From IMG/VR virus record IMGVR_UViG_3300027782_000025, positions 1 through 64,000 of that record: a DNA stretch of 64,000 nt; one strand, written 5' to 3'. Position 1 is the first letter of the stretch. The number at the start of each line of letters is the position of its first letter. Source of the DNA: a virus. Below, piece by piece: positions 13,180-53,390 of the stretch. The notes under the pieces were generated by a model, which was not told the origin of the DNA, searched no databases, and worked only from the letters and a program-made list of their open reading frames with translations. The translations under genes and the position numbers were made by a program.

Positions 13180-13860
13180 ATGGAAAATAGCTTCTTTGGT
13201 GACAAAAGAGTCCTTTTAAAATTTGATAAAAGAGACCAAGAATTCGAGAAATGGTTACTGAATTGTGAAGATCAAGCAAATACCATAGCATATATTAATG
13301 GGGTAATCGATGGAAGATGGCCAGAAGCAGAGCCGATCTTAATGAAAACAGAATACGCCGTAGGATATGCAGATAAATTCATTAAAGGAAGATGGCTTGA
13401 AGCCGAGCCATATATAATGAAAAACCCAATATTGGCCTATTGTTACGCTGAAGAAGTTATAAAAGGAAGATGGCTAGAAGCCGAACAAACCATAATGACA
13501 GATCCAGAATGCACCATCGCCTATGCTTTAGAAATCATCAAAGGAAGATGGATAGAAGCAGAACCTTTTATAAAGACTTCCCCAGCATGTGCCGCGGCGT
13601 ACGCTATCGGTATCACCAAGATGAGATGGGAAGACACACAGCTTGAATTGCGTATACTTGAATGTACGACAGAGTTAAACTACATCAGAAATCCTTCATC
13701 TGACTATTGGCAACATTCATGGGGAACCGGTGTTACTAAATACGTTTATGCCAGAATGGTTGCTAAAACATCTTGGAAAAAGCTGTATGCCGAAGTTAAA
13801 GCCACGCATGCCGAGATCACATGTTACGATAACATTAATCTCGTCGGTGTCGAAGAGTAG
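13180..13860 (+). CDS. WPEAE-repeat protein, single-module type (226 aa)
   Basis: After a 45-residue N-terminal segment come five units of about 28 residues, each of the form A-x-x-Y-A-x-x-x-I-K-G-R-W-[PLI]-E-A-E-P-x-I-M-x-x-P. The last unit is changed to M-R-W-E-D-T, then comes a helix with V-Y-A-R-M-V-A-K and the end Y-D-N-I-N-L-V-G-V-E-E. The repeats look like helical hairpins of an alpha solenoid, probably for protein binding. Members at 16418, 39607, 45579 and 52320 share the repeat, and that at 55293 is distant. I know of no named function. ATG 13180 follows CAAGGAGAAAAA. Confidence 0.8.
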   Translation: MENSFFGDKRVLLKFDKRDQEFEKWLLNCEDQANTIAYINGVIDGRWPEAEPILMKTEYAVGYADKFIKGRWLEAEPYIMKNPILAYCYAEEVIKGRWLEAEQTIMTDPECTIAYALEIIKGRWIEAEPFIKTSPACAAAYAIGITKMRWEDTQLELRILECTTELNYIRNPSSDYWQHSWGTGVTKYVYARMVAKTSWKKLYAEVKATHAEITCYDNINLVGVEE

Positions 13861-13863
13861 CTA

Positions 13864-13891
13864 TTTCCACTCGGTTTCCATTTGTTACAGG
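13864..13891 (+). promoter_or_regulatory. Promoter with a weak -35 box
   Basis: TTTCCA (13864-13869), 16 bp, TACAGG (13886-13891) preceded by TGT. Leader GGGTTTTAACAC. The -35 box coincides with a GGTTTCC-like sequence. Confidence 0.5.
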
Positions 13892-13925
13892 GTTTTGGGT
13901 TTTAACACTTTTTTCAAGGAGAAAA

Positions 13926-15053
13926 ATGATGAATACTGTAGTAATGCAATCGGCCAGCCTCTACTTCAAAGACAATGTAAGTGACAAAGTCTACAACGTC
14001 ACCCTCGAAGAAGCAGATGGTGGATACATCGTCAACTGCTCATGGGGTAGACGAGGCGGAGCCTTACAAAGTGCCACGCAAACCAAATCCCCAGTATCCA
14101 TCGACAAAGCCATCGCCATCTACCATAAAAAACTATCCGAAAAAACCTCTAAAGGATACATGCCCACCTCCGACACCGGCAGAACACTCGGCAACTCCAT
14201 AACCGTGCCCGACACCGATAAACCATTCGAACCAATCTGTAACCTACTAAACCCTATAAACGAATACCAACTCAAACAACTGCTAATAGACGACTCTTGG
14301 ATCATGCAAGAAAAAATGGACGGCGTGCGCATGATCCTCACGCGCAAAGGCGACAGCATCACCGCAGTCAGCCGAACAGGACGCGAAGCCACAATCCCCC
14401 AAGAAGTACACGACACCCTCATCAAGACCTCAGTCCAGAACTACATCATCGACGGAGAACTAGTCGGCGACGTCTACCACGTATTCGACCTCCTAAGACT
14501 CCAAGCAATGGACTTCGCGGCCAAGAATACCTTCGAAGAAAGATATGAAGCACTCGTCGAACTACTCAACGGCATCGACGACACCAACGTCAAAGTCGTG
14601 AAGACCCACTCAGGCTACGACAAAACCCAGGCCTTCGAAGACCTTAAATCCGCCGAAGGCGTGGTGTTCAAGCACAAAAACGCGTTCTATAAGGCTGGTA
14701 GACCATCAAGCGGTGGCGGATACTTGAAATACAAGTTCTACAAAAGCTGCAGCGCTCTGGTCACCGGGATAAATGACAAAAGGTCTATAGCCCTGAGTTT
14801 AATCGAAGACATGCCAGAGCACGGTAGCGAATATGTCGTCGGTAGAAGGCTCATATCAGTAGGGAACTGCACCATCCCCGTGAATTATGACTTCCCACAA
14901 AATGGTGACATCGTTGAGATTAAATACCTCTATGCTCGGAAGCCTAGCAACGCGCTCTACCAGCCGAGCTACCTTGGTAAAAGGACGGACATCCAGCTTA
15001 AGGATGTCCTATTGTCGCAGCTCATCTATAAGGTGGGTGAGGAAGAGGAATAG
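13926..15053 (+). CDS. ATP-dependent DNA ligase with N-terminal WGR domain (375 aa)
   Basis: Residues 5-70 form a WGR domain (signature CSWGRRGG at 38-45), a module known from PARPs and some bacterial proteins that binds DNA. From about residue 100 there is an ATP-dependent ligase: nucleophile lysine K130 in E-K-M-D-G-V-R, Y-I-I-D-G-E-L (motif III), H-V-F-D-L, E-G-V-V-F-K (motif IV) and L-K-Y-K-F (motif V). It should seal nicks in phage DNA in replication or repair. The C-terminal OB-like part is short, about 100 residues. ATG 13926 (with another at 13929) follows CAAGGAGAAAA. Confidence 0.92.
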   Translation: MMNTVVMQSASLYFKDNVSDKVYNVTLEEADGGYIVNCSWGRRGGALQSATQTKSPVSIDKAIAIYHKKLSEKTSKGYMPTSDTGRTLGNSITVPDTDKPFEPICNLLNPINEYQLKQLLIDDSWIMQEKMDGVRMILTRKGDSITAVSRTGREATIPQEVHDTLIKTSVQNYIIDGELVGDVYHVFDLLRLQAMDFAAKNTFEERYEALVELLNGIDDTNVKVVKTHSGYDKTQAFEDLKSAEGVVFKHKNAFYKAGRPSSGGGYLKYKFYKSCSALVTGINDKRSIALSLIEDMPEHGSEYVVGRRLISVGNCTIPVNYDFPQNGDIVEIKYLYARKPSNALYQPSYLGKRTDIQLKDVLLSQLIYKVGEEEE

Positions 15054-15089
15054 TACCATTTCCAACGAGGAAAGCATGGGGTGGGGGGA

Positions 15090-15118
15090 TTTACTCTTCC
15101 GCCCCTTTTTGCTACAAC
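15090..15118 (+). promoter_or_regulatory. Promoter with class A leader
   Basis: TTTACT (15090-15095), 17 bp, TACAAC (15113-15118) preceded by TGC; TTTCC-AACGA-GGAAA hairpin at 15058-15072. Confidence 0.75.
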
Positions 15119-15154
15119 GTATTGGGTTAATAACACTTTTCAAGGAGAAAAACG

Positions 15155-15570: not shown

Positions 15571-15595
15571 CAAAGCCCATTAAACCTGCTACAAT
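15567..15595 (+). promoter_or_regulatory. Near-consensus promoter
   Basis: TTGACA (15567-15572), 17 bp, TACAAT (15590-15595) preceded by TGC. The -35 box overlaps the TGA stop codon of the preceding gene. Confidence 0.85.
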
Positions 15596-15632
15596 AAAAC
15601 CAGATTTCACCATTTAACCAAGGAGCATAAGC

Positions 15633-16417: not shown

Positions 16418-17173
16418 ATGAATGCTGAAATGCTACGAGCATCGGCTACTCCGAGTAAAGCTTGCAGATATGCCATTGACAATGTTACAAAACGATGGAG
16501 AAGAAAAAAAGCTTTAGAACCAATAATAATGACAAGCGCATTCTGTGCTATGGATTACGCTTGCCATGTGATTGAAGGTCGTTGGCCAGAAGCCGAACCT
16601 ATTATAATAACAAATCCATATGCTGCCTTAGAATACGCTATAAACGTTATCAAAGGTAGATGGCCGATAGGCGAACCAATTATATTAACGGACCCTGCGC
16701 GATCAGTATTATATGCTGAATACGTCATCCGTGGCCGCTGGTTAGATGCCGAACCGAGCATTATGACGTTAGAACCATGCCGTGGTGAACATATTCAACG
16801 CTATGCCAAGGAAGTAATGAAAGGAAGATGGCTAGAGGCAGAATCCAACCTATCAAAAGACGCAGAATATTCTTATATCTATGCCAGAGAAGTAATAAAA
16901 GGCCGCTTCCACGAGGCAGAGCCTACCATAAAGGCAAACACACGATATGCTTATCAATACGCAAGAGACTGCATCAGAGGAAGATGGGAAGACCCTTTGG
17001 TGGAATTAAGAATCCTAGAATACGGCAGCTTTAGCATTCGCGGCCGCCCATCAGAATACGCGCTTGAAATCGCAAAAATGTCACCAGACTCACTAAGAGC
17101 AGAACTCGAAATATACCTCGCAGATTTCTTGCCGAACGATAATGACGACCTTACCGACACCAAATCAGAATAA
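16418..17173 (+). CDS. WPEAE-repeat protein, single-module type (251 aa)
   Basis: Six units of the form A-x-E-Y-A-x-x-V-I-K-G-R-W-P-x-[AG]-E-P-x-I run from about residue 30 to 195; the last has G-R-W-E-D-P-L-V. They are followed by a helix (YALEIAKMSPDSLRAELEIY) and end N-D-N-D-D-L-T-D-T-K-S-E. This end corresponds to the place where the multi-module protein at 39607 continues into its T-E-E-A-I-D-R-L linker. ATG 16418 follows TCAAGGAAACTAAG. Paralogue of the gene at 13180; function unknown, probably an alpha-solenoid binding protein. Confidence 0.8.
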   Translation: MNAEMLRASATPSKACRYAIDNVTKRWRRKKALEPIIMTSAFCAMDYACHVIEGRWPEAEPIIITNPYAALEYAINVIKGRWPIGEPIILTDPARSVLYAEYVIRGRWLDAEPSIMTLEPCRGEHIQRYAKEVMKGRWLEAESNLSKDAEYSYIYAREVIKGRFHEAEPTIKANTRYAYQYARDCIRGRWEDPLVELRILEYGSFSIRGRPSEYALEIAKMSPDSLRAELEIYLADFLPNDNDDLTDTKSE

Positions 17174-37838: not shown

Positions 37839-38981
37839 TCAATATTCTGCGTAGTCTCTGAGCTTGTCATAGAGTTTAGCGAGGAATCTGGAATGGTCGA
37901 TTACTTTTTTAAATCTCTGCTTTTCGGATTCAGTATTACCAGCTTTGCTTAAGGTGTTTTTGAGCTTATCCTCTGTTTGACCAAGAAAGGCTATTTCTGT
38001 AAGGATTTCTTCGAAATTAGATAAGTTACGGATGAAGTCGTATAGGTCACCTAGATATTCTCGCTGTACATTCGTGTTCTTATATTTTAGATATAATTTA
38101 TCTAATGAGCCTATATCTAGTTTAGATTTAATGACCATTAGGATGTTTTTAGCTTGTGTGATTATAGCAGATTGTAGTCTACCTAATTTAAGACTATGCT
38201 CTCTGGCTTTTTTGGCTGCTTCTGGTCTAAACTTATTAACTAATTGCCCAAAATAACCTGGTTTTTTATAATAGCCTGTGTCTTTCTCAGAGGTTATCTC
38301 TATGTTTTTATATTTCCTATTAGTTAAAAGTCTTAAAGCTTTCTCCTCACTATCGGCTTCGATGTGTCCGTGTTTGCGTATGCCGGTATTAGGATCATTA
38401 GCTATATATTCATATGTTTCTTCGGTTATTGGCTTTTTATTTTTCTTTTTGTGTTCGAGAGCTATAAATTCTTTTAAGCCTCTTATTAGACTACTGACAT
38501 CTGGTTCGATTTTAAGAAAGAGATCTTTACAGTTAGCTTTTAGAGTGGGCAGAACTTTGGCTAAGAAATATTTCGATAAAGCCGCAGGGTCTGTAACGTC
38601 AGCGTTGGCTGGGCGCTTTAGTCTCTGTTCATTAGATTTAATGATGTATTTGTTACGCTTGGTGTCAAATGTCGCTATTTTTATAGGTAGTGCGGCGCTA
38701 GGAAGTTTACTTAAGAAGCTAGGTGACTTTTTTAAATCTAGACCCAGATTAACATGGCGATAGTGGTAATCTATTACCACATTTACATATTTTTGGTTTT
38801 TTCTAGACTGCACGATCTGAGATACAGGGCCAATTTGTTTAGTCTGGCCGTTCCTATCTGTAAAACTGATTTGGTTTTTCGCCGGTATAAATGAGTATAC
38901 TTCATCTGCGGATCGGTCTTTAAGAGGTATAACCTGCTGGGTGCTTCCCACCACTTCATTTATAAGCTGATATAATCTCAT
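37839..38981 (-). CDS. Late-type protein with capsid-targeting-like N-terminus (380 aa)
   Basis: It begins M-R-L-Y-Q-L-I-N-E, matching M-[KR]-L-x-x-[IL]-[IL]-x-E seen at 47505, 55127, 59584 and 60559. Residues 25-65 (QISFTDRNGQTKQIGPVSQI, then V-Q-S-R-K-N-Q-K-Y) share with the protein at 58154 the pattern G-P-[IV]-x-x-I-V-Q-S-[KR]-K. The rest is helical and rich in Lys and Asn with a Y-E-Y-I-A-N-D-P-N-T segment. No enzyme motif is seen. It is probably packaged or assembled in the head, by inference from the N-terminus. Confidence 0.65.
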   Translation of the reverse strand: MRLYQLINEVVGSTQQVIPLKDRSADEVYSFIPAKNQISFTDRNGQTKQIGPVSQIVQSRKNQKYVNVVIDYHYRHVNLGLDLKKSPSFLSKLPSAALPIKIATFDTKRNKYIIKSNEQRLKRPANADVTDPAALSKYFLAKVLPTLKANCKDLFLKIEPDVSSLIRGLKEFIALEHKKKNKKPITEETYEYIANDPNTGIRKHGHIEADSEEKALRLLTNRKYKNIEITSEKDTGYYKKPGYFGQLVNKFRPEAAKKAREHSLKLGRLQSAIITQAKNILMVIKSKLDIGSLDKLYLKYKNTNVQREYLGDLYDFIRNLSNFEEILTEIAFLGQTEDKLKNTLSKAGNTESEKQRFKKVIDHSRFLAKLYDKLRDYAEY

Positions 38982-39606: not shown

Positions 39607-42600
39607 TTATTCTTCGTCTATGTCGGATAAGTTAATGTCGTCGTCTGCGGTGGTATCTTTGAAATTTTTAAGATGCTCTCTTGCGGCTATGGCTTCACCT
39701 CTGAGGCGTCTTCGTAAATCATATTGAATGTTTTTTTGTTTTTTATGTTCTGGCGCTGGCCACTCGTGTTCCCAAGCGTCTTTTAGCGAGTTTTCATAAT
39801 CTTTATTAAGTTTTTTTTCTTCATCATGAAACGCTCCTATTAATAAACTCTTAATGGAGCTGGGTATGGTTCGATCATCTAATATCTCTTTTGGCGGATA
39901 GGGTTCTTTATATGAAAATAAATCTGCTCCGATTTTGAAGTTTTCGGCTCCTTTTTCCTTATATTCGTCCGCTTTTGCTTTGAGCGCTATAATAGATTGC
40001 TGAAACTTGGGTGGGTAGCTTCCAAAAAATCTGGCTCTTATTTTATTTATCGCTTTATCTAGCCAATTGCTGATAGGGTAATATTCTTTAAATTCCCTTC
40101 TACGCCCCCAATAGTCTTTTCTACTAGCTTCATATATAAGTGGCATTAATCTGTCTATAGCTTCGTCGGTAGTATCTGTCAAATTAATATCATCGTGTGG
40201 CACTATATCCTTTATCTTTAACTCGATTTCAGCTAAAAGATCTTCCCTAGTCATAACCGCCACATGTTCGGCATACGGCATTTCCCAAGGAGCGTTTAAG
40301 ATTAATAACTCGGTTTTAGGATCTTCCCATCTACCGTTATCATATCTGGGATTGTCTTTATCGAACGGCTTGATTACATCTTCAGCATAGTAGTATGCAT
40401 ATTCAGGGTCCTGTTTAATGGCCATTTCTCCTTCTGGCCATCTTCTTTTTAAAACATACTGGGCATAAAATAATGATGATTTTGCATCCGTAGAGATGAT
40501 TGGTTCAGCTTGCTTCCAAGGTCTATCAAGGACGTAATTCGCATAGAGGTAGGAAGCATAGGGGTGAGTTAGTATCTTAGGTTCAGCTTTGGGCCATCTT
40601 TTTTTTATAACGAATCTTGCCGTGGTGTAACATTCAAGAGCGTCTCGGCGGTTAATATCATAATCTTCTGGATCGACTTTATTCTCAGCTATAAGCGGCA
40701 TAAATCTATCGATCGCTTCTTCTGCGGTTCCAGACAGATCGGTCTCGTCATTTTTTATGAAAAACTGAGATGTTGATTTTACTTCATCTAAGAAGTCTTT
40801 AAATGGTATTTTTACTAGTCTATCAGCGTAAACTTTTGCGCGCCCCAGGTCTTTAATTATTATTGGTTCTGCTATATACCACCTTTCACCTAGTACAAAT
40901 TGAGCATAAAGCGATGCTACATGCGGATCTTTAATAATGGTACGCTCGGCCTCAGGACATCTCATTTTATTGACATTATCCTTATCTAAACTCCTAAAAT
41001 AAACATAATTAAATGCATTAATAGGACTCATCCTTTCAAAATCTGGTAGCTCTTCAGCATTCTCCATAATAAGTGGCATTAATCTATCGATCGCTTCTTC
41101 GGTTGTGTCAGTAAGATTCCTGTTTTCGTCTGGGAACATTTGACCCATTCTTATATCGACATCAGCTTGAATAACCTCTAGTGGCATGTGCGCAACATAT
41201 TGGGCGTAAAAGTAGGCATACTTTGGATCTTGCAATATGAATGGCTCAGCATCTTCCCACCTTAATTTATCCCTCTGGCCTGATTTACTATAGATATCTC
41301 TGGCATAAATATAAGCCCACTTTGGACTTTTCATAATATATTCTTCAGCATTAATGAATCTTTTCTTTCGATCGGCTTTTCTAATCGGCTCATGGTTTAA
41401 GACATTCTTAGCGTACGCTGAAGCATATTCTGGGTCATGTTTTATGATTTCTTCTGCGTCACTTAACCATTGTTCACACTTGCCATCTTGGTCCATTTTT
41501 AGAATGAAATTATATGCATAATTATAACATTCTTGTGGTGTCAGCTTTTTAGGATCTGGCAGAAGCCCTTCGATAATGAGCGGCACCAGTCTGTCGATTG
41601 ACTCATCAATACCAGTTAAGTCTTTGTCTTCTTGTGGGTGTAAGTCTCTTCGAATAGCTTCGACTTCTGCTAAAAATTGCTCATACGGCATCTGTGCTAT
41701 ATTTCTAGCATACCTTTCGGCCCAGCGTTTATCTCGTATTATGTAAGGTTCGGCCTCTGGCCACCTTATACCGAGGTTTTTACGTCTGTTTATTACATAA
41801 TCGACATATTCGTAAACATATTCTGGTGATGTTATTATATATGGCTCTGCCTCTGGCCACCTTTTGCCAAGATTTTTGCGTTTGTTGATAACATAATCAG
41901 CATATCTGCAAGCATATTCTGGTGATGTCTTTATAGATGGCTCTGCCTCTGGCCACCTTATACCGAGTCCTTTCTCTTTGTTGATAACATAAACGGCATA
42001 TTTGCAAGCATATTCAGGTGATGTCTTTATAGATGGTTCGGCCTCTGGCCACCTTTTACCGAGGTTTTTACCTTTGTTAATGGCATCTAACGTATAAAAG
42101 AAAGCATATCTTGGGTCTTTCATTATATATGGTTCGGCCTCTGGCCACCTCTTACCGCGGTTTTTACCTTTGTTCATATAACGGTAGATTTCATACTGAG
42201 TCATTTTGCTTGGGTCTGGCTCTTTTTTGTTTTCGCTGATAAGTGGCATCAGTTTATCGATCGACTCTTCGACGGTGTTGGATAAATCCAAATCATCCCC
42301 GCTAGTTAATTCCGATATCTTCATCTCTGCGTCTGCCTTAAGATCTTCAATTGACATTTTGGCTACCTCTGTACAATAAGCATATAGGTAATAACCATAA
42401 TCATCAACATCATCATCTTCGAAATGCTCTATTATTCGTAATTCGACCATTGGAGCTAATCTGATTTTACTTATATCGGTGGCATAGGACAGGGCAAATC
42501 GAAGATCCTTTCCTCCTAAAATAAGCGGTTCAGCAGCTTTCCAAGTGCCCTTTATAACGTTCTTAGCATAATTGAACGCCCAGTATTGATCTGTTAATAT

Positions 42601-44634
42601 TATGGGTTCGGCTTCGACCCATTCACCTTCTATGATGTATTGAGCATACTTATAAGCATACTCAGGTGATTTTAGGATTTCGCTTTCCTGCTTGGGTGTA
42701 AGTCCTTCTTCTTTAGCATTCTTCTTATCTAATGCTATATGAAAGAGCGCCATTGCGCGACGATTATCTTCACTACTTTCCACGATTATCTGCGTGGTGC
42801 TTTTTAATCCTTCTTCGGTGGTTTTAGATAGATCTAGATCATCAGCTGCATTCAGACCATTTAACTTTCTTTCTATATCCGATTTTAAAGCTTCTATCGA
42901 CATCTCAGCAACATTATTGGCGTAGAGTTCGCATATTTCGCTTTCTTTTTCTGAGTCATTTTCGGGTATGACAGGGTCGTGGTCTTCTAAGATTCTTGAC
43001 TCAGTCTCTATATCCCATCTTCCATTATCGTGATCATAGTCAGCTTGGTTAGAGGGTTTTATGATATAACGTGCATATAAATAAGCGATATAGGTATTGT
43101 TCTTTATAACGTTTTCGGCTGTCTTCCATCGCCTACCTAGGACATCTTTGGCATATGCATAGGCCCAGTATGGTTCAGACATAATCGTAGGCTCGGCTTC
43201 CTCCCATCTTTTGCCTAGGCATTTGCCATCATTAATAACATCGCGAGCATAATAGTAGGCTGCCCCCGGGTCTCGCATCATAACTGCTTCAGCCTTGGGG
43301 TCTGGCTCATAGTCTTCGCCATGTAGTTGTTTAGTCTTGTAATCGGTTATGGCATAAGTATAAACCGTAGTTGGTGTCATAGTTGAATAATCGCGTTCGA
43401 CTACAGCCTCAACAATGAGCGGCAATAAATTATCAATGGCTTCTTCAATAGTGTCTTTTAAGTCGATTGAGTCATGATAATGAAGATCGTTTAATTTATT
43501 TTCGATATCTTCACGTAATTCATCTTCTGAAGTCTTTGCCACGTGCTCTGCATAGTATTTTGCCGAACCACTATTAATTATACCTAGCTCTATTTCGGGA
43601 CTCTTCCAACGTTCCATTAATATGTCTCTAGCGTATCCATACGCTAGATGTGGATCAACCACTATGAATGGTTCAGCTTCTAACCATCTACCTCTATCGT
43701 AATCTGGATTTTCTTTATCATACGGCCGTATTACAAGCAAGGCATAATAATAGAGGTAATCTCTATCGTTATGTTCAATGCCTATATTTTTTAGAATATA
43801 TGGTTCGGCTTCAGGCCATCGACGTTTAAGATGATCTATGGCATAATGCACCATTACTCGAGCGCTGCTAGTTCTAACGTCTGGTTCGGGGTGTTTAAGG
43901 TTCGGATCCCACTTTGATTCTTCAACCACGTTCGTAAAATCTATGTCTTGGCCTGTATGTAGCACCTCTAGACGATAGTTTACTTCATCGTTTAATTCTT
44001 TGATCGTAAGCTCCGGTGCAACTGTGCGAGCATAAAGGGAGCCATAGATACTATCCAGAATTCTTCTCTCAGTCTGCGGATTATCATATCTTTTAGGATG
44101 TTTAAGATCCATACAATATAACGTGGCTATATAAGGATCATTAGAGATTACTGCCTCGGCATCTTCAGCATGTGGACCATCCCACTGATGCTCAAGGGCG
44201 CTTTTAGCATATTCGTAAGCCCAGTCTGGTCTAGAGGCCATAACTCGTTCTATCAAAGGCCACTTGCCCTTAACCAATTTAGCGTAATGTAGAGCAAGAT
44301 TTGGATCGGTACTAATCTTATCTTCGGCATAACGCCCTATTTCACTGTCAGGCCAAGGACCATCTAAGACATTTATTGCATAATACGCTGCAGCCTTAGG
44401 GTCTTCTTTAATGACGACTTCACCGTTAGGCCATTCTCGATAAAGGCGATTTTGCGCAAATAAATAGCAATTAAATGGCGTCCAATAAGGATCATTAGGC
44501 ACAGGGTCTTTATGTGATTTGGGTCGGTTTTGAAACGATGGCTCTGAGATATTCCGATTTTCTATAAGCATATGTTTTATAGCATCGATAGAAATTAGAA
44601 GATCGATACCGACTTGGTGCTTTTTATTACTCAT
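39607..44634 (-). CDS. Giant multi-module WPEAE-repeat polyprotein candidate (1675 aa)
   Basis: About 26 units of some 30 residues of the form A-x-x-Y-A-x-x-V-[IL]-x-x-R-W-P-E-A-E-P-x-I-x-x-D-P fill the protein. They fall into nine blocks separated by eight linkers of the form D-D-x-D-L-T-D-T-x-E-E-A-I-D-R-L-M-P-L-I-x-E, coded at about 40140, 40690, 41065, 41570, 42240, 42780, 43410 and 43910; six or seven of these end L-I-x-E, the T4 prohead protease consensus. The end D-D-D-I-N-L-S-D-I-D-E-E matches the ends of the single-module paralogues. Five 96 bp tandem copies lie at 41755-42160. It may be cut into many mature solenoid proteins; function unknown. Confidence 0.7.
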   Translation of the reverse strand: MSNKKHQVGIDLLISIDAIKHMLIENRNISEPSFQNRPKSHKDPVPNDPYWTPFNCYLFAQNRLYREWPNGEVVIKEDPKAAAYYAINVLDGPWPDSEIGRYAEDKISTDPNLALHYAKLVKGKWPLIERVMASRPDWAYEYAKSALEHQWDGPHAEDAEAVISNDPYIATLYCMDLKHPKRYDNPQTERRILDSIYGSLYARTVAPELTIKELNDEVNYRLEVLHTGQDIDFTNVVEESKWDPNLKHPEPDVRTSSARVMVHYAIDHLKRRWPEAEPYILKNIGIEHNDRDYLYYYALLVIRPYDKENPDYDRGRWLEAEPFIVVDPHLAYGYARDILMERWKSPEIELGIINSGSAKYYAEHVAKTSEDELREDIENKLNDLHYHDSIDLKDTIEEAIDNLLPLIVEAVVERDYSTMTPTTVYTYAITDYKTKQLHGEDYEPDPKAEAVMMRDPGAAYYYARDVINDGKCLGKRWEEAEPTIMSEPYWAYAYAKDVLGRRWKTAENVIKNNTYIAYLYARYIIKPSNQADYDHDNGRWDIETESRILEDHDPVIPENDSEKESEICELYANNVAEMSIEALKSDIERKLNGLNAADDLDLSKTTEEGLKSTTQIIVESSEDNRRAMALFHIALDKKNAKEEGLTPKQESEILKSPEYAYKYAQYIIEGEWVEAEPIILTDQYWAFNYAKNVIKGTWKAAEPLILGGKDLRFALSYATDISKIRLAPMVELRIIEHFEDDDVDDYGYYLYAYCTEVAKMSIEDLKADAEMKISELTSGDDLDLSNTVEESIDKLMPLISENKKEPDPSKMTQYEIYRYMNKGKNRGKRWPEAEPYIMKDPRYAFFYTLDAINKGKNLGKRWPEAEPSIKTSPEYACKYAVYVINKEKGLGIRWPEAEPSIKTSPEYACRYADYVINKRKNLGKRWPEAEPYIITSPEYVYEYVDYVINRRKNLGIRWPEAEPYIIRDKRWAERYARNIAQMPYEQFLAEVEAIRRDLHPQEDKDLTGIDESIDRLVPLIIEGLLPDPKKLTPQECYNYAYNFILKMDQDGKCEQWLSDAEEIIKHDPEYASAYAKNVLNHEPIRKADRKKRFINAEEYIMKSPKWAYIYARDIYSKSGQRDKLRWEDAEPFILQDPKYAYFYAQYVAHMPLEVIQADVDIRMGQMFPDENRNLTDTTEEAIDRLMPLIMENAEELPDFERMSPINAFNYVYFRSLDKDNVNKMRCPEAERTIIKDPHVASLYAQFVLGERWYIAEPIIIKDLGRAKVYADRLVKIPFKDFLDEVKSTSQFFIKNDETDLSGTAEEAIDRFMPLIAENKVDPEDYDINRRDALECYTTARFVIKKRWPKAEPKILTHPYASYLYANYVLDRPWKQAEPIISTDAKSSLFYAQYVLKRRWPEGEMAIKQDPEYAYYYAEDVIKPFDKDNPRYDNGRWEDPKTELLILNAPWEMPYAEHVAVMTREDLLAEIELKIKDIVPHDDINLTDTTDEAIDRLMPLIYEASRKDYWGRRREFKEYYPISNWLDKAINKIRARFFGSYPPKFQQSIIALKAKADEYKEKGAENFKIGADLFSYKEPYPPKEILDDRTIPSSIKSLLIGAFHDEEKKLNKDYENSLKDAWEHEWPAPEHKKQKNIQYDLRRRLRGEAIAAREHLKNFKDTTADDDINLSDIDEE
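41735..42180 (-). repeat. Five tandem 96 bp coding repeats
   Basis: The block C-T-C-T-G-G-C-C-A-C-C-T recurs every 96 bases (about 41755, 41851, 41947, 42043, 42139), encoding 32-residue units R-W-P-E-A-E-P-[SY]-I-[KI]-T-S-P-E-Y. The nucleotide copies are nearly identical, so this part of the gene expanded recently. Confidence 0.85.
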
Positions 44635-45578: not shown

Positions 45579-46901
45579 TCAACCTACACCCAATGGCCCT
45601 ATATCTCTAATATACATCTTATATCTGGATGGGTCTACTGCCTTTAGTATGCCTTCTATTTCTAGCCATCGATGCCCCAAAACATCAGTACAAAACATAT
45701 TTATGATAGGAATATTATTAAGAGCCGTTTCAATATCGAAATCATATATTACCTTCTCCCTGATCTCGTCTGATGTCATTTTTTCGAAGCTTGTTAGAAA
45801 GTAAGGATATTTGCTAATTATTAAGATGTTAGTAACCGGATCATCCCATAGTTTTCCGAAATGTCTTGCGTAATTCATTGCTTCGTGAATACTAGACTGT
45901 ATGATTTGCTCGGCCGCTGGCCAAGGGCGCTCTAAAACATTCCTTGCGTATTCACTAGCGAGGTAATCGACTCTAAGAATGGCCGGTTCGCCTTTTGGCC
46001 ATGGCGCCTTGAGTATCTGATTTGCATAGACATAGCTACTATCAGCATGTCTTGATATTGCATTTTCAGCCTCTGGCCAGCTTTCGTAGCCTTTATCTCT
46101 AGCGAAAATAACTAAATCCGCTGGTTTAATAACTTTCGAATCTACCAGGTCATCAATTTGTTTCGATGATAATCTGCTTAAATCTGATGTTTCATAATAA
46201 TGTCGCCAGTTCTTCTCGTCTTGGTCAGATTCGCCCTCAAGTAAAAAACTTCTCAATTCGCTGTTGATCTGGGCCATATTACTCAAGAATATTTTAGCAT
46301 ATGAACTGCAGTTAGTAGTTTTATGGTCTTGTATATCTTTCTTAGCCTTAGATATTATCTGGTGATCGACGATAGCGCCGTTTTTTCTTCCTGTCCATCT
46401 CTTCCTTAAAATCTTCAGAGCATAGAGGGCGGCAGTTTCGGGATCTGACCCTATTATGCTTTCGCCTAATTCCCATTCTTCCTTAAGAATCGTCATAACA
46501 TATGCTAAAGCGCCCTGTGGTGTTTCGATGATAATTGATTCCGCTGTTCTCCATCTCCCTGATTTATTATGGCTATTGCTTTCGATTATTATAGAAGCAT
46601 AATCGATTAGATTTTTAGGGTCCCGTCGTTCCAGTAGTTCTCTTTCACCAGCCGGCCATCTCTCCCCAATTATATCAGCATAGTCGATTATCTGTTTTAA
46701 AGACATCTCAGCAGGATCTGGTTCACCACTCTTCTCTTCTAGCATAGATATATTCATCGCCTCTGTAAAAAATCCGGCGGCATCATAAAACGAACGCTTG
46801 GCATTTACCGAAACGCTTACTTCTTCTAACAGACGCATACTATCCATACCCAACGGCATTTTTTTAAAGCGGCCAGTATTATGATTTTGCGGGTTTTTCA
46901 T
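45579..46901 (-). CDS. WPEAE-repeat protein with cleavage-like motifs (440 aa)
   Basis: Nine or so WPEAE units such as G-E-R-W-P-A-G-E-R, G-R-W-R-T-A-E-S, A-P-W-P-K-G-E-P and R-P-W-P-A-A-E-Q occur through the protein. M-R-L-L-E-E-V-S-V-S at about residue 22 (coded near 46838) resembles the capsid-targeting-type starts, and F-L-L-E-G near residue 217 resembles a prohead protease site between two blocks. ATG 46901 has no good ribosome binding site; the Met at 46838 is an alternative start. The C-terminus (G-H-R-W-L-E-I-E) resembles that of the protein at 55293. Confidence 0.65.
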   Translation of the reverse strand: MKNPQNHNTGRFKKMPLGMDSMRLLEEVSVSVNAKRSFYDAAGFFTEAMNISMLEEKSGEPDPAEMSLKQIIDYADIIGERWPAGERELLERRDPKNLIDYASIIIESNSHNKSGRWRTAESIIIETPQGALAYVMTILKEEWELGESIIGSDPETAALYALKILRKRWTGRKNGAIVDHQIISKAKKDIQDHKTTNCSSYAKIFLSNMAQINSELRSFLLEGESDQDEKNWRHYYETSDLSRLSSKQIDDLVDSKVIKPADLVIFARDKGYESWPEAENAISRHADSSYVYANQILKAPWPKGEPAILRVDYLASEYARNVLERPWPAAEQIIQSSIHEAMNYARHFGKLWDDPVTNILIISKYPYFLTSFEKMTSDEIREKVIYDFDIETALNNIPIINMFCTDVLGHRWLEIEGILKAVDPSRYKMYIRDIGPLGVG

Positions 46902-47504: not shown

Positions 47505-48986
47505 ATGCGTTTATTATCGATTCTAGAGGGTATTTGGCCCCATAACATTAAATTACACGGTCCTTATTCAGAGCCGGTGAATGTTTATCTGGCTCTTGAC
47601 GGTGTTCTTTCGGAGCCTGATTGGGGCGAAATGGCACACAGATATAAGACCGATAAAAACCTTAAAGCATTCTATGCTAGGGTTATAAAAAACCAGAAAT
47701 TGATCGATACAGCTGCTAACTTAATTAAAAGCGTTAATTCGCAGGACACCGGCAAAAAAGGTAACTTATACATTGCCGCCTATTCGATACCTAGGGATTT
47801 AAGAATTAACCCTACTGTGCTTCAGCAAGCGATCATTGATTGGGCGCACGATAATTATCCTCAGATACCTCAGGCTAATATCCTGTTTAGTAAACCAAAG
47901 GGTGTAGGCGCGAGCGATATATTAGTCGATAGAAATATCGATAATATTAGAGGATGGCAAGAATCGCAGGGTGTTGGTATTCTATACGATGCTAATAAAC
48001 CTACCTTCGCCATTCGGAGCCTTAAAGCTCCCCCAGGTCCGATGTCAGCCAAAATAGATGTCGAAAAAGAAGGGATGTTTACTACTGATTTTTCTCGTGA
48101 AGATCGAAAATTATCTCAAACAGGCCAATTCCAGATAAAAGACGAAGAAGACGGTGTTCTTAGAAACTATCGCGTCTTTATTGATAAAATCGCGCTAAGG
48201 ACTGAGAGCGGTGAATCTAAGAAGATGTCAGTATTTTCACCTTATTCTACTGATAACAAAGCTGAACAATATCTGTTCGGCTTATTAAAGAAAGAGAAAG
48301 ATCCTAATCCTTCGAGCCCTGACCCAGAACACGCTGAATATGCTCTAAATGAATTTGTAGAAAGAGCCGCTGTATGCCTTTCAGATAATTTCTTGAAAAA
48401 AGCAGGGCCATTTGGTTCGATCCACATTCCGGCTTCTGGGTCAGAAGTGGCGATTAATTTCGCTTCTGTGCTCCAGGACGAATTAGGCATTCCTAGTGAC
48501 AGCATTTATGTGTGGACTAAAAATAAAGACCCACAAAGCGTCATCGTTAATCAAGAAGGCGTTAAACAAGTTGCATATGGTAACTTAGTAAGAGACTTTA
48601 AACTTACTTCAAACACCCGTTCAAAGAAAGAAGTTAAAAGCGATAACGAAAGACTAGTCTTTGATGCTCTACGAAGCGGTGCGATTACTAATGATCAGCT
48701 TGAGGAATATCTAAATAAAATAAATATGTCATGGAAAAAGCAAGCTACTGAGTGGGTTTTAGGTAATAAGGCCACGAAAAATCTTGATCCACATATAAGA
48801 CGCGGTAATTTATTGAATCTATATGTTCCGCCAGCGAATCTAGATGTCGAGTCGCTTGCGGGTACTAAGGTCTTACTAGCAGATGACGTCGTTACATTTG
48901 GGATGACCCTTATTAATATCGCCACAAGTCTACTCAAGGCTGGCGCTGAAGATATCACAGCTGCCACAATTTACAAGTTCATGTAG
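47505..48986 (+). CDS. Fused HAD-like/phosphoribosyltransferase-like protein with capsid-targeting-like N-terminus (493 aa)
   Basis: The start M-R-L-L-S-I-L-E-G fits the M-[KR]-L...[IL]-x-E pattern. Residues 25-160 resemble a 5'-nucleotidase-type HAD fold: V-Y-L-A-L-D-G-V-L in place of D-x-D-G-V-L, so the nucleophilic Asp is Ala, and I-L-V-D-R-N-I-D-N-I-R-G-W later. The last 40 residues, V-L-L-A-D-D-V-V-T-F-G-M-T-L, are the phosphoribosyl-binding loop of a PRTase. The frame extends upstream over the previous gene, but ATG 47505 has GGAG about eight bases before it. Enzyme activity is doubtful for the HAD half. Confidence 0.6.
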   Translation: MRLLSILEGIWPHNIKLHGPYSEPVNVYLALDGVLSEPDWGEMAHRYKTDKNLKAFYARVIKNQKLIDTAANLIKSVNSQDTGKKGNLYIAAYSIPRDLRINPTVLQQAIIDWAHDNYPQIPQANILFSKPKGVGASDILVDRNIDNIRGWQESQGVGILYDANKPTFAIRSLKAPPGPMSAKIDVEKEGMFTTDFSREDRKLSQTGQFQIKDEEDGVLRNYRVFIDKIALRTESGESKKMSVFSPYSTDNKAEQYLFGLLKKEKDPNPSSPDPEHAEYALNEFVERAAVCLSDNFLKKAGPFGSIHIPASGSEVAINFASVLQDELGIPSDSIYVWTKNKDPQSVIVNQEGVKQVAYGNLVRDFKLTSNTRSKKEVKSDNERLVFDALRSGAITNDQLEEYLNKINMSWKKQATEWVLGNKATKNLDPHIRRGNLLNLYVPPANLDVESLAGTKVLLADDVVTFGMTLINIATSLLKAGAEDITAATIYKFM

Positions 48987-49447
48987 AATATAAACGTTCT
49001 ACTTAAAAATTCGATCGTTTTTTCACATATACCTGGAGAGGTCTTCTCAGAATTCCCAGCTATATTAAGAACTTTTATGTCTTTGTCTTTAATCCATTGG
49101 GCCAGTTCTTCTGGCATTATGTCAAGTTCAAAAGGATTTATATCCATATATGGCTTGCCGGCCAGCATGATCTCCTTGTATGTCAGTTTTTCGCCTGGAG
49201 AATTCCATTTGGTCGAAAACCTAACAGTACCATCTGAAGTCTGCACATTTGCTTTAGTGCGTGGTGGATAGTTAGGGCTGTTGTGTTCTCTCATCCCGTA
49301 GACAGAAGCGAATTCAGATCGATAGCCGTCGTGAGCTAAAAAACCTGAAGGCATATAGCCTCCAGTAATAAAGCCAGCAGCCTTAGCAGCTATAAGACCT
49401 GCTCTATCTGCACCTGTTTGCCCGCCTGAAATAACTTTTTTAAGCAT
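48971..49447 (-). CDS. Putative molybdenum-carrier/SLOG-type protein (158 aa)
   Basis: K-K-V-I-S-G-G-Q-T-G-A-D-R-A-G-L at the start and G-G-Y-M-P-S-G near residue 28, with Y-P-P-R-T-K-A-N-V-Q-T-S-D-G-T further on, match the putative molybdenum carrier family (PF12694; SLOG-like Rossmann fold) that binds a nucleotide. ATG 49447 was chosen over an upstream start because GGGG sits six bases before it. It lies two bases after the winged-helix gene, in one unit from the promoter at 49835. Its 3' end overlaps the convergent gene by 16 bases. Confidence 0.75.
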   Translation of the reverse strand: MLKKVISGGQTGADRAGLIAAKAAGFITGGYMPSGFLAHDGYRSEFASVYGMREHNSPNYPPRTKANVQTSDGTVRFSTKWNSPGEKLTYKEIMLAGKPYMDINPFELDIMPEELAQWIKDKDIKVLNIAGNSEKTSPGICEKTIEFLSRTFIFYMNL

Positions 49448-49448
49448 C

Positions 49449-49730
49449 TTATACCCCATTATTAAGATTACGTTCTTTACATAGCCAGACCTTGTCGACA
49501 TTATTTAACACATATAACCCAGGAGAGCCATATTTCTCGCATGTTCCCACATAGGATTTATCGTTCTTTTTATTATGCACATAGCCTTTACGTGTTAACC
49601 TGTGAATCGCTTTCCTGATTGCAGCGAGGTCGTAAATGTCGGTTCTAGCAGCTAGTTCTTTAAATCCGTAACCATGTAAATCATCCATCACGTCTATTAA
49701 CGCCAATTCTACTTCATCCAGCTCTTCCAT
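49449..49730 (-). CDS. Winged-helix DNA-binding protein (93 aa)
   Basis: V-E-L-A-L-I-D-V-M-D-D-L then G-F-K-E-L-A-A-R-T and D-L-A-A-I-R-K-A-I-H-R-L-T-R-K-G-Y-V is a winged helix-turn-helix with a wing containing N-K-K-N-D-K-S-Y-V. It would bind DNA and act as a regulator, possibly of its own operon, with the MoCo-like gene downstream. Evidence is the fold pattern only. The gene is preceded by an unusually structured leader (49770-49828). Confidence 0.7.
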   Translation of the reverse strand: MEELDEVELALIDVMDDLHGYGFKELAARTDIYDLAAIRKAIHRLTRKGYVHNKKNDKSYVGTCEKYGSPGLYVLNNVDKVWLCKERNLNNGV

Positions 49731-49769
49731 TATCTGTCTACTTTCTAAATCATACCGCTAAAATAAACT

Positions 49770-49828
49770 GACTGGCGCAAGGATTGTTCACACTACCTCA
49801 ACGAGAGATAGTGCCAGTGCGCCAGCCA
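49770..49828 (-). promoter_or_regulatory. Structured leader of the winged-helix gene
   Basis: CTGGCGCA (about 49771-49778) pairs with TGCGCCAG (about 49818-49825), enclosing CACTA (49790-49794) with TAGTG. On the minus strand this lies between the promoter at 49835-49863 and ATG 49730 in a leader of about 95 bases. It could be an operator RNA or a ligand-binding element. Confidence 0.6.
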
Positions 49829-49834
49829 TGACCC

Positions 49835-49863
49835 TTTGTAACAGATTAAATATCCGGTTGCAA
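49835..49863 (-). promoter_or_regulatory. Leftward promoter
   Basis: Minus strand: TTGCAA (49863-49858), 17 bp, TACAAA (49840-49835) preceded by TGT. Confidence 0.72.
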
Positions 49864-49865
49864 TT

Positions 49866-50600
49866 CTATCTAGAACCATACATGAAATGATAAGCTGTCA
49901 TATCTTCGATTTCATTTAAGTTATGGGTATCGAATTCTGTGATACTACGAAAGAATGGCGGATCCATTTTCGCTAAACAGGCCACACCACGCTGACACTT
50001 TGCGATAAATTCCGTTTTAGTCTTACATAAATAATGATTAATCTGGGCAATGTCTGCAGGACCGTCTGGGTTATAAGGCCCATTAAACAGCTTTTTATTA
50101 GTATCTCCGATAACACAATTTGGATTGTGAATATCCATGATTGCATCCCTTGATAGTCTTAGATTTAATATCGATTTTATATGCTGATCCACATGAGCAC
50201 CACGCTTTGTAAATCTCTTGATCGTACTGTAGTCTATGATCTTCCCTTTGTGCCCATTGTCCCCAAAAAGGTACCAATTTATACCTAAAGCCGGTAGATC
50301 TTCATATTCCTTTAAAAAATCACCGATATTATTGTGTTTTTTTAAAACCATGAATTCATCAACATCGAGAAATGCCGCCCAATCGAAATTATTTCGATTG
50401 TTATCTAGAAAAAGATTATAACAAATGGTTTGCTTACACTGTCCATTGGCTGTGAGAAATCTTGCTTTTTCGTTCTTAGTCTTAGATTCCCAATCATTTT
50501 GGTAAACAAAGATTTCATCGAAACCTAATTTTTTATGATAATCGATCCATTCATCAATATAATTGTCTTCATTTTTTGCAATGCAGACTAATGCGATCAT
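49866..50600 (-). CDS. GT92-like glycosyltransferase (244 aa)
   Basis: M-I-A-L-V-C-I-A-K-N-E-D-N-Y-I-D-E-W-I-D-Y-H at the start, W-A-A-F-L-D-V-D-E-F-M-V near residue 76 and I-N-H-Y-L-C-K-T near residue 200 are the conserved blocks of DUF23/GT92-like enzymes; D-x-D-E is the metal-binding motif. It would add a sugar, perhaps galactose, to an acceptor. ATG 50600 follows AAAGGCGCACT. It is single-copy behind a terminator. Confidence 0.8.
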   Translation of the reverse strand: MIALVCIAKNEDNYIDEWIDYHKKLGFDEIFVYQNDWESKTKNEKARFLTANGQCKQTICYNLFLDNNRNNFDWAAFLDVDEFMVLKKHNNIGDFLKEYEDLPALGINWYLFGDNGHKGKIIDYSTIKRFTKRGAHVDQHIKSILNLRLSRDAIMDIHNPNCVIGDTNKKLFNGPYNPDGPADIAQINHYLCKTKTEFIAKCQRGVACLAKMDPPFFRSITEFDTHNLNEIEDMTAYHFMYGSR

Positions 50601-50618
50601 AGTGCGCCTTTAAAAATG

Positions 50619-50643
50619 ATCACGCCACTTACACTGGCGTGAT
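50619..50643 (-). terminator. Terminator of the radical SAM gene
   Basis: ATCACGCCA (50619-50627) pairs with TGGCGTGAT (50635-50643) over 9 bp; on the minus strand TTTTTAAA follows after CA. Confidence 0.8.
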
Positions 50644-50654
50644 AGGATCATCGA

Positions 50655-51614
50655 CTAGACACCTATTTCATCTCCGTATGCTTTAGCTACCATCTGTTGA
50701 CCCGATCTCATATCAAGCCAGACTTTGCGTTCGTGGTCGCTCCAGATAGGTAATTGATTAGGAGCTAAATGTGCTACTTTAATTCTAGCATCCTGCCATC
50801 TCTTGTAATAGGCCTCCTTCCACGCGAGATAGTCAGCCTTTACTAGCATTGTAGCCTCGATCTTAGGCCAATCAAGCTCAGGGATCTCAAGGCAAGCCCT
50901 ACGGAATGCCTCAAAAGATTCCTTATAAGGCTGCATCGGATCAACAAAGTATTCATCAACCCCTATCTCAGCAAGCTTGGTAGCGAATTCTTCTATTAAA
51001 TCTTCACTCATCCCTGGCATTATTGGGCTAACATTGACATGCGTCCTGATACCCGCAGCCTTGAGCTGCTTAATAACTTCCCACCTTCTTTCTGTCGTAG
51101 GACTAAATGGCTCGATAGCCCTCAGAAGCTTAGCTGGGAAGGGTGTGATTGTAAAATGTACTCTAGCTTGCGGGAGTCTTTTAATTAATTCGATGTCTTG
51201 GAGAACGAGAGGTGATCTGGTGAAAATGCCTACTTTTTTGAAACGTGGGACTCCGTCGGCCAAAATAGCCTCCAACGCGGATCTGGTAATCCGATATTTT
51301 AATTCGGCTGGCTGGTAGGGGTCAGTCATTGTGCCGATTACTAGCCTTGCATCTTGAATAAATATCGTTGTATTTGCATCTAACCTAACGTAGCCTTTCG
51401 AAATCTCCTTAGGGAGCTTTTCAGAAACGTGCGCTCGCACTCTTACGAAATCACCCCATTCTCGATCTTCATCTTTCACGAAGAATCTTACATAACAGTA
51501 AGTGCAACCAAATTTACAACCAACGTAGGTGTTTAGACATACGTCGTAGTTTTTAAAACCGCTCTTCGTTAGGAGCTTTGATCTTGTGGCGACAGTCATC
51601 AGTTCTTTGGCCAT
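50655..51614 (-). CDS. SplB-type radical SAM protein (319 aa)
   Basis: C-K-F-G-C-T-Y-C-Y at residues 33-41 is the C-x-x-x-C-x-x-C iron-sulfur motif; N-T-Y-V-G-C and F-V-R-V-R-A and later P-F-S-P-T-T-E-R-R-W-E follow the outline of the spore photoproduct lyase-like (SplB/COG1533) family. Members reverse a photoproduct or act on other substrates; the SplB assignment is only to the family. It lies alone between its promoter and a terminator. ATG 51614 has AGAAATGCA upstream on the minus strand. Confidence 0.82.
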   Translation of the reverse strand: MAKELMTVATRSKLLTKSGFKNYDVCLNTYVGCKFGCTYCYVRFFVKDEDREWGDFVRVRAHVSEKLPKEISKGYVRLDANTTIFIQDARLVIGTMTDPYQPAELKYRITRSALEAILADGVPRFKKVGIFTRSPLVLQDIELIKRLPQARVHFTITPFPAKLLRAIEPFSPTTERRWEVIKQLKAAGIRTHVNVSPIMPGMSEDLIEEFATKLAEIGVDEYFVDPMQPYKESFEAFRRACLEIPELDWPKIEATMLVKADYLAWKEAYYKRWQDARIKVAHLAPNQLPIWSDHERKVWLDMRSGQQMVAKAYGDEIGV

Positions 51615-51658
51615 TGCATTTCTCCATGATTAGTGATAGTCCCAGTACGACACTAATA

Positions 51659-51687
51659 CATGTAGCAAATATGCTAATCTTTGTAAA
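51659..51687 (-). promoter_or_regulatory. Leftward promoter of the radical SAM gene
   Basis: Minus strand: TTTACA (51687-51682), 17 bp, TACATG (51664-51659) preceded by TGC. Confidence 0.65.
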
Positions 51688-51690
51688 TTA

Positions 51691-51730
51691 TGTGGCTGAG
51701 TAAAGATCGCCCAAAATCTACTCAGCCACA
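51691..51730 (-). terminator. Hairpin between the winged-helix-like and radical SAM genes
   Basis: TGTGGCTGAGTA (51691-51702) pairs perfectly with TACTCAGCCACA (51719-51730). On the minus strand it follows the gene at 51755 and lies directly before the radical SAM promoter, repeating the terminator-promoter layout of the small-gene array. Confidence 0.7.
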
Positions 51731-51754
51731 GCACCTCCGAGGAGATGAAAAGAA

Positions 51755-52252
51755 TTACTCGTTAGAACCAAGTAAAAAATTAAAAGGATGAGATAATATG
51801 CTTTCCACCTCTTGGGCTGCAGACAAAAGACTATCACGATTAGTAATCGGGACGATTGTGTCTACAAGGTCAGGATATTTATTATAAATCTTGCTAAGCC
51901 ATTCTAATTTGGCGCCTAGATTGGAAGTATTACTAGTCTGAGCAATAGGTTCTAAATTATTGCCTTGAGCCTTAAATGCATTTGTTCTCGGCTTTCGCTC
52001 TAAACCTTGAGCTTGATCGTCTGCGATCTTCCAAGTCTTGACGATACGACCGTAACGACTCCTTGAACCTGCAGGTATTATTTTACCATCACGATAAAGC
52101 TTGTATCGACTCTGTGTCCCTTTTTGAACATCGACACCAATTCGGCGACAGATTTCGTTATCGCTCAATCCTGGCGTGTTAGTAAGACTTTCTAAAACGC
52201 GCGTGCTGATACTGCTACTCTGACGGTTATGAGACTTTTGAAGTGAAGCCAT
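51755..52252 (-). CDS. Winged-helix-like DNA-binding protein (165 aa)
   Basis: L-S-D-N-E-I-C-R-R-I-G-V-D-V-Q-K-G-T-Q-S-R-Y-K-L-Y-R-D-G-K-I reads as a helix-turn-helix with a wing (G-K-I-I-P-A-G-S), as in the protein at 19924. The second half has an Asn/Thr linker and a helical end with L-S-A-A-Q-E-V-E-S-I. The N-terminus is Ser/Gln-rich. Function is regulation of some kind by inference. ATG 52252 is preceded by AGGCAATA. Confidence 0.65.
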   Translation of the reverse strand: MASLQKSHNRQSSSISTRVLESLTNTPGLSDNEICRRIGVDVQKGTQSRYKLYRDGKIIPAGSRSRYGRIVKTWKIADDQAQGLERKPRTNAFKAQGNNLEPIAQTSNTSNLGAKLEWLSKIYNKYPDLVDTIVPITNRDSLLSAAQEVESILSHPFNFLLGSNE

Positions 52253-52319
52253 TATTGCCTCCTAAGCTTGGTTATGGTTATCGAAGCTAAGAATACAATA
52301 CATGGATAATTTATCCGAT

Positions 52320-53390
52320 TTATTCTTGCTCAAGATCTGAAAGGTCAAGACCATCATCTTTGAGAAGCTCTGATACTATGAAATTATTGTTTTCTATGAA
52401 AGATTCTAAATCTTCAAAGCCAGCCAATACCGTCGCATAAAATTTAAGCTGACTTCTAGCATGACCACTTAATTCTTTAAGCTTTATCATCTCGCGTTCT
52501 AATGCCGGATCGTCCCAAAAATAAGTCGTCAACGAGCCAACAGCATAATTAAGAGCTTGTCTAGTGTCTGTCTTAATTATACCCTCAGCCTCTCTCCAAC
52601 GCTCTTCTAGAATCTCGTTAGCATAATCTACACAGCATTCGGCATTTTTTAATTCTAAGAGTGCGTCTTCGCCATCAGGCCAAGAGCCTTTAACATGAAT
52701 ACAATATTCACATATCGCTCTAGGGTTTGTTAAGATAACTGGTTCGCCTTCTGGCCAAGGCTCACCCATGATGTCTTTAGCGTATAAATAGCAAGCATAC
52801 GCACTTTTTAGCACATATGGTTTAGCTAATTCGAATATCTCATCCCTATATTCAGGACTTACTTTATATGAATTAAGGAATTGTACAACTTGTATCGGCC
52901 TCCATAATTTAAATTCGGGTATCTCGTAAGGCCCGACCCACGCTTCAATGATTGATCTCTTTTCCATGAGCGAATCTATAGCGTTTTCGAGTTTTTCGTT
53001 TAACATTGAATCAAGACCATCGCTTGATAACAGATCCTCGATCTTTAAATTAAATGATTTACAATAAATAGGTGCCCAAACCATAGATTCGGCTATGGTT
53101 TTATTGGCTCTCTGGTTTTTCCAGCGTTCGTGCATTATATCCTGAGCATACCTAACAGCAGAGGTCGGGTCTTTAGCTATAGTGTCTTCTGCATCAGGCC
53201 ATCTTATAGGAATACCGTGGTTATTTTTATTTATTACATTTTTGGCATACAGATATGATAAGTAAGGGTCAGTTTTAATTATATTTTCATTTTCGAAAAT
53301 CCTAAGACCTGTTAAAACAGCTGATTTATAACATTCCGCCGGCGATTTTATTTTTTGGGTAATGCTCTTTTTAACAGCATGATTAAGCAT
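52320..53390 (-). CDS. WPEAE-repeat protein, two-module type (356 aa)
   Basis: Units such as I-R-W-P-D-A-E-D-T, H-E-R-W-K, G-E-P-W-P-E-G-E-P and E-E-R-W-R-E-A-E-G occur on both sides of a linker L-E-N-A-I-D-S-L-M-E-K-R-S-I-I-E-A, which resembles the E-E-A-I-D-R-L linkers of the 1675-residue protein and contains I-I-E-A, a prohead-protease-like site. The end D-G-L-D-L-S-D-L-E-Q-E matches the family end. Function unknown. ATG 53390 lacks a strong ribosome binding site. Confidence 0.68.
   Translation of the reverse strand: MLNHAVKKSITQKIKSPAECYKSAVLTGLRIFENENIIKTDPYLSYLYAKNVINKNNHGIPIRWPDAEDTIAKDPTSAVRYAQDIMHERWKNQRANKTIAESMVWAPIYCKSFNLKIEDLLSSDGLDSMLNEKLENAIDSLMEKRSIIEAWVGPYEIPEFKLWRPIQVVQFLNSYKVSPEYRDEIFELAKPYVLKSAYACYLYAKDIMGEPWPEGEPVILTNPRAICEYCIHVKGSWPDGEDALLELKNAECCVDYANEILEERWREAEGIIKTDTRQALNYAVGSLTTYFWDDPALEREMIKLKELSGHARSQLKFYATVLAGFEDLESFIENNNFIVSELLKDDGLDLSDLEQE

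Follow-up and report, generated by a model that had tools for sequence, protein, structure and literature searches.

What might a virus gain from carrying one protein repeat in five genes, one of them 5 kb long? The question is raised by a 64,000-nucleotide stretch of DNA (here, the window) that constitutes bases 1–64000 of a 274,625-base virus record (IMG/VR IMGVR_UViG_3300027782_000025). Four smaller genes and one giant gene (39607–44634, minus strand; 1675 aa) in the window share a repeat, which we designate WPEAE. On balance, we favor the reading that many WPEAE proteins are internal head proteins of large T4-like phages, and that the giant is a polyprotein that would be cleaved as the head matures, its products being ejected along with the DNA. 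The original prediction, made from the letters of the window, had described the repeat; it overlooked what is the most specific functional clue, namely, the module boundaries, the linkers of the form L/I-x-E, and the capsid-targeting sequences (CTSs).

The basic unit comprises 26 residues, with the consensus RWPEAEPxIxxDPxxAxxYAxxVIKG. We defined membership of the family by tandem copies of the 26-aa pattern R-[WF]-P-E-[AG]-E-P-x-I...A-x-x-Y-A-x-x-V-I, which five genes of the window contain. When the units of the window were turned into a 26-column profile and run against its open reading frames (ORFs), exactly these five matched (full-sequence E 1e-23 to 3e-197). Two single-module copies lie on the plus strand, at 13180–13860 (226 aa; hidden Markov model, HMM, E 1.6e-48) and 16418–17173 (251 aa; HMM E 5.2e-63), and three multi-module copies lie on the minus strand: the giant, 45579–46901 (440 aa; HMM E 1.4e-23), and 52320–53390 (356 aa; HMM E 1.1e-48). 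They hold 43 units scoring above 8 bits (giant, 23; 16418, 6; 52320, 5; 45579, 5; 13180, 4). When every six-frame ORF was shuffled five times with its composition preserved, the repeat profile found no match with E under 2.8, so the repeat is not a product of compositional bias. The Pfam models of Sel1 and TPR did not match the window's repeat proteins at E values up to 1, and that identity was rejected; Pfam and NCBIfam yielded sub-threshold chance matches, none above a curated cut-off. A sequence-profile search of the PDB with the repeat gave no match, no named PHROG family covers the repeat, and a literature search for the motif strings returned nothing relevant. Judged by sequence, the WPEAE repeats are a previously undescribed family, unnamed in Pfam, NCBIfam, and PHROG.

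The family that the original prediction had outlined is thus real in five genes, and its two suspicions against itself, compositional bias and membership of a known family such as Sel1, were not borne out by the shuffles and the searches. Other details required revision. The distant sixth member it had suggested (55284–56195, plus strand) has no match to the repeat profile and was rejected. Its unit of 28–32 residues is replaced by one of 26, the 32-residue form being limited to one local array in the giant. The early copies, described as one module each, have four to six units, and the late ones, said to have two to nine modules, include a giant whose 23 units fall into about eight modules, followed by a non-repeat tail.

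Divided at the points where its sequence restarts, the giant consists of modules M1–M8 and a non-repeat domain, M9, with a similar acidic end. Each module opens with a leader, which is often PDPxxLTPxExYxYA, continues with several WPEAE units and usually the cap RWEDPxxELxIL...YAxxVAxMSxExLxAEIExK, and ends in an acidic tail resembling DxDLxDTxEE. The stand-alone proteins terminate at this tail, whereas at seven of the eight boundaries in the giant it runs on into a linker with the consensus AIDRLMPLI-x-E↓[ANSG], where the arrow marks the presumed cut, as (A)ID-x-LMPLI-x-E or in a diverged form. On the minus strand, these linkers are AIDNLLPLIVE↓A (M2/M3, 43408–43440), the diverged GLKSTTQIIVE↓S (M3/M4, 42778–42810), SIDKLMPLISE↓N (M4/M5, 42232–42264), IDRLVPLIIE↓G (M5/M6, 41569–41598), AIDRLMPLIME↓N (M6/M7, 41062–41094), AIDRFMPLIAE↓N (M7/M8, 40684–40716), and AIDRLMPLIYE↓A (M8/M9, 40129–40161). 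They read LI-x-E, or once II-x-E; the I and E are invariant (7/7), with V, V, S, I, M, A, and Y (six kinds) at the intervening position. The prohead protease gp21 of phage T4 cleaves after L/I-X-E (PMC9026906), and the sequences of the giant's linkers match this signal. The first 25 residues of the giant (44560–44634, minus strand) form a candidate CTS that ends in AIKHMLIE↓N and resembles the linkers. We defined a strict motif as hydrophobic-[LI]-x-E-[AGSNT]. The giant contains nine (shuffle expectation 1.9): one at residue 22 in the candidate CTS, one in each of the seven linkers, and one elsewhere.

The same arrangement could instead be an uncleaved beads-on-a-string scaffold, cytoplasmic or in the virion, in which AIDRLMPLIxE is a structural helix for hinging or docking and the L/I-x-E is incidental. 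We regard this as unlikely, though it is the strongest of the alternatives. It accommodates the shared descent of the linkers and their predicted form, a short helix that is hydrophobic at several positions. However, single modules end cleanly without the linker, which therefore is not part of the module fold. Variation is greatest at the middle residue and absent from the I and the charged E, as in L/I-x-E, and the diverged M3/M4 linker lacks DRLMPL yet retains IIVE.

The same genome encodes a gp21-type prohead protease at G000:112700-113422 (PF03420, E 2.8e-16), a gp23 capsid protein (PF07068, E 5e-79), and a T4-type portal (Portal_T4, E 2.9e-66); the source virus is therefore a large T4-like phage. 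In the N-terminal extension of its gp23 homologue, SILE↓N ends at residue 65, and T4 gp23 likewise loses about 65 residues. RIIE↓S, ALVE↓G, QLVE↓S, ILAE↓S, and TLVE↓S are present in the ORF at the scaffold position, between gp23 and the protease. L/I-x-E sites are also numerous in an acidic protein of 1047 aa adjoining the protease. Within a crude gene set of the phage, the strict motif occurred in the first 25 residues 17 times, against 8.3 expected. In T4, a CTS of about 10 residues targets proteins into the head, and internal head proteins are packaged and ejected (PMC9026906). The likeness to T4 IPI, IPII, IPIII, and Alt lies in the short N-terminal peptide ending in L/I-x-E, together with a gp21-type protease and gp23 in one genome. 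Such a peptide is present in the giant (MLIE↓N, at residue 22, longer than in T4), roughly in 45579 (MRLLEE), and in many relatives; 13180, 16418, and 52320 lack it. Unlike the T4 proteins, the WPEAE cargo is a predicted solenoid unrelated to them in sequence, occurs in arrays of up to 27 copies in relatives, and in this phage is fused in one chain with internal CTS-like sites; its packaging here is what we infer. A second parallel is the ejection proteins of SPN3US and phiKZ, large phages that also process many head proteins with a prohead protease, which cuts after x-E (PMC5694885). Their sites differ, being A-x-E or S/A/G-x-E with long propeptides, whereas here the signals are L/I-x-E, short, and accompanied by T4-type capsid genes.

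T4 core proteins are also cut at many L/I-x-E sites (PMC9026906). The WPEAE proteins could accordingly be packaged but serve the head itself, as proteins of the core or of DNA condensation that, like T4 gp22 and gp67, are cleaved and mostly discarded, rather than as delivered effectors. The phage's 1047-aa acidic protein and scaffold-position ORF are rich in such sites, and most modules of the giant are acidic (pI 4.5–5.1), as this account would have it. We nevertheless consider it improbable, because the sites of the giant lie between folded modules and spare the modules, whereas core proteins have sites throughout, and because diversifying variation on one helix face and early cytoplasmic copies would be unexpected for scaffolding.

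Relatives in other phages bear on the packaging reading. A DNA pattern for GRWPE[AG]EP picked out 66 viral-contig stretches, the majority of which encode clear repeat proteins; relatives are present in dozens of phage contigs. In one contig (G012; L205:359-18651), 27 head-to-tail genes occupy 18.3 kb, joined by ATGA overlaps, two of them broken, and the array genes each begin MKLRDL[FL]E↓AM[DN]LYKYHSNP. This array makes up about one fifth of an 84.9-kb phage contig and is a natural record of gene-array turnover. Untagged homologues in four other contigs (L057, L069, L045, L229) begin right after the presumed cut of the tagged ones. A CTS, a 'GTKWCTA' region, and repeats are fused in L033, L039, L048, L054, L055, and gp435 of Salicola phage SCTP-2 (ASV44450.1), and L219, L222, and L226 have further tandem repeat genes bearing a CTS. 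Among repeat-bearing records of at least 100 kb, a CTS-like start on a repeat protein was found in 5/6 with a gp21-type protease and 0–1/7 without (Fisher p 0.005–0.025), with CTSs judged by eye in a small sample of records, some of which may be incomplete. The SCTP-2 protein combines a CTS-like N-terminus and a WCT region with one or two WPEAE units, and its genome contains a gp21-type protease. The PHROG entry phrog_28193 matches relatives; in contrast to the window's proteins, gp435, phrog_28193, and phrog_17056 are annotated as hypothetical or have no assigned function, with few units and no tandem modules.

Outside these contigs, matches were sparse. The same DNA pattern, applied to contigs of species-level prokaryote genomes, retrieved 115 stretches with one convincing repeat ORF (L179); the near absence of the motif from species genomes makes the family essentially viral at this sensitivity. 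tblastn of the giant against public phage and plasmid records gave no match. For the 16418 protein, the same records returned SCTP-2 gp435 (weakly) and a diverged Rhizobium plasmid ORF whose relation is doubtful. Single-sequence relative searches with the 16418 protein, the giant, and the neighboring CTS gene at 53406 confirmed none. The linker pattern retrieved nine stretches of viral contigs; those read encode unrelated proteins, none with the repeat.

Under the favored reading, a short N-terminal CTS would bring a WPEAE protein into the prohead core, where the gp21-type protease would remove the CTS after L/I-x-E. The mature solenoid would then be ejected into the host together with the DNA, and its variable helix face might bind host targets. 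These targets could include host defences, by analogy with T4 IPI, which is listed as an inhibitor of type IV restriction enzymes (PMC9026906). In the giant, cutting at the seven internal CTS-like linkers would yield eight products in a fixed ratio, the first being M1+M2 and the others beginning at residues 410, 620, 802, 1023, 1192, 1318, and 1503, and the two plus-strand copies without a CTS would act early in the cytoplasm. More tentatively, we propose in full a bacteriophage polyprotein of eight solenoid modules and a tail domain, cut within the capsid into host-directed proteins in fixed ratio, the linkers serving as both targeting and cleavage signals; in other phages the same cargo would come from arrays of as many as 27 genes coupled in translation, with a diversity resembling that of an adaptable binding repertoire.

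Several observations weigh against this proposal. In the giant, the motif is missing at the M1/M2 boundary, and each linker would stay attached to the C-terminal end of the preceding module if the cut falls after E, unlike the removal seen in T4. The placement of 8/9 strict motifs in the N-terminus or linkers favors the proposal (p ~5e-8 under random placement), but this value loses weight because the linkers share descent and the motif was chosen after they had been seen; because the linkers are paralogous, their agreement does not represent seven independent events. No relative of the giant was found in the viral contigs with which linker conservation could be compared. Among the other window genes, 13180 and 16418 have neither a strict motif nor a CTS, and 52320 has no N-terminal CTS. 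One relative (L081) has the protease, yet its multi-module repeat proteins lack a CTS, and by eye L/I-x-E is not consistently kept at their boundaries; we therefore do not extend the polyprotein idea to L081.

The proposal nonetheless gives the repeat family delimited here, which is multi-copy in several large phages, a testable home in the interior of the phage head. Under it, a single precursor would supply a phage with many folded cargo proteins through the action of the maturation protease, much as in some animal viruses; if true, the family would be a naturally modular, head-packaged protein set whose face is hypervariable. For packaging signals beyond T4, the homologues with and without the tag amount to a natural experiment.

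We modeled the fold with AlphaFold2 (AF2). The 16418 protein (25-row alignment) gave a mean predicted local distance difference test score (pLDDT) of 84, with blocks of 93–98 across most repeats and two helices per unit. The model of M7–M8 with their linkers (6 rows; mean 61) showed two solenoid blocks separated by a stretch with pLDDT ~40 that contains the M7/M8 linker, which weakly supports separate modules joined by a linker. Foldseek searches against the PDB and BFVD gave nothing below E 0.001; the best BFVD row, A0A248SK38, is a 648-aa protein of the same length as SCTP-2 gp435. Stacked helix pairs are a general likeness to HEAT, ARM, PUF, and designed helical repeats, to which VIA-align gave Z scores of 5–7.6, values usual among unrelated helical repeats. 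The WPEAE unit differs from these repeats in its 26-residue length and in having no sequence similarity to them, and the best Foldseek E was 0.46.

Across 289 distinct units, the core is nearly fixed (E6, Y19, R1, I9, A16, A20, and also I24), and variation is greatest at positions 14, 15, 18, 21, and 22. With a spacing of i, i+4, i+7/8, positions 14, 18, 21, and 22 come to lie on one face of the second helix, which suggests diversified binding. In the G012 array (123 units), the proportion of nonsynonymous differences (pN) at positions 14, 18, 21, and 22 was 0.51, 0.60, 0.30, and 0.34, versus a pooled synonymous proportion (pS) of 0.13; a claim of positive selection for these units is complicated by gene conversion in the array. 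The original prediction had proposed alpha-solenoid scaffold or binding proteins: the AF2 model of the 16418 protein supports the solenoid, nothing supports the scaffold, and a binding surface fits the hypervariable helix stripe. A selfish or neutral expansion, in which recombination spreads a 26-residue unit that duplicates readily and has little function, would suit the recent DNA-level tandem amplification in M5 (41750–42178, minus strand; 96-bp unit of 32 aa, 4.5 copies; Tandem Repeats Finder, 81% matches) and the 27 tandem paralogues of G012 with their two broken members, but is very improbable given the intact 5-kb frame of the giant, the near-fixed core beside a pN well above pS, and the retention of protease-like signals.

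The 13180 protein has four units and a cap, and the 16418 protein six scored units, a cap, and the acidic C-terminus DDLTDTKSE; translation of the two probably begins with the ATG at 13180 and that at 16418, both of which follow a Shine-Dalgarno-like AAGGA (AAGGAG for the former). The two-module protein at 45579 has strict motifs at residues 24 and 219 and two more within helices, and RSFLLE↓G lies between its modules (~46236–46262). The two modules of 52320 are separated by ENAIDSLMEKRSIIE followed by A (~52944–52985); its SIIE↓A, read from the translation, has the L/I-x-E form, and the strict motif is absent. Directly upstream of 52320 is a 578-aa CTS protein (53406–55142, minus strand) with MKLSLILE↓N and a GSKWCTR region. 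By eye, it resembles the front part of the CTS/'GTKWCTA'/repeat fusions of relatives, and the repeat gene comes straight after it; this protein and the GxGTKWCTA relatives have no Pfam match, and phrog_28193 covers one relative. Two further minus-strand neighbors have T4-like CTSs, MRLYQLINE↓V (37839–38981) and MKLSILYE↓S (58154–59584). Beside the capsid gene, a 629-aa CTS protein (G000:107673-109562; L014:3673-5562, minus strand) begins MNLSIILE↓S and has a sub-threshold PcfJ-like match (E 1.9e-4). The T4-type portal gene (G000:116637-119135; L014:12637-15135, minus strand) contains an apparent intein, with an Intein_splicing domain at residues 98–248 within the Portal_T4 frame.

In the 274,625-base record, all repeat matches of the 16418 protein are confined to the window. 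GC content in the window is 0.44–0.52 to the left and 0.35–0.40 to the right of a break near 32000, with strong skew at 28–32 kb; repeat genes lie on both sides of this break, which argues for one genome and against a chimera. An ATP-dependent DNA ligase with an N-terminal WGR domain (13926–15053, plus strand) lies between the two plus-strand repeat genes. Among the minus-strand repeat genes, a small metabolic cluster (48971–51614, minus strand) encodes a YpsA-like SLOG protein, a family 2/92 glycosyltransferase, and a radical SAM protein.

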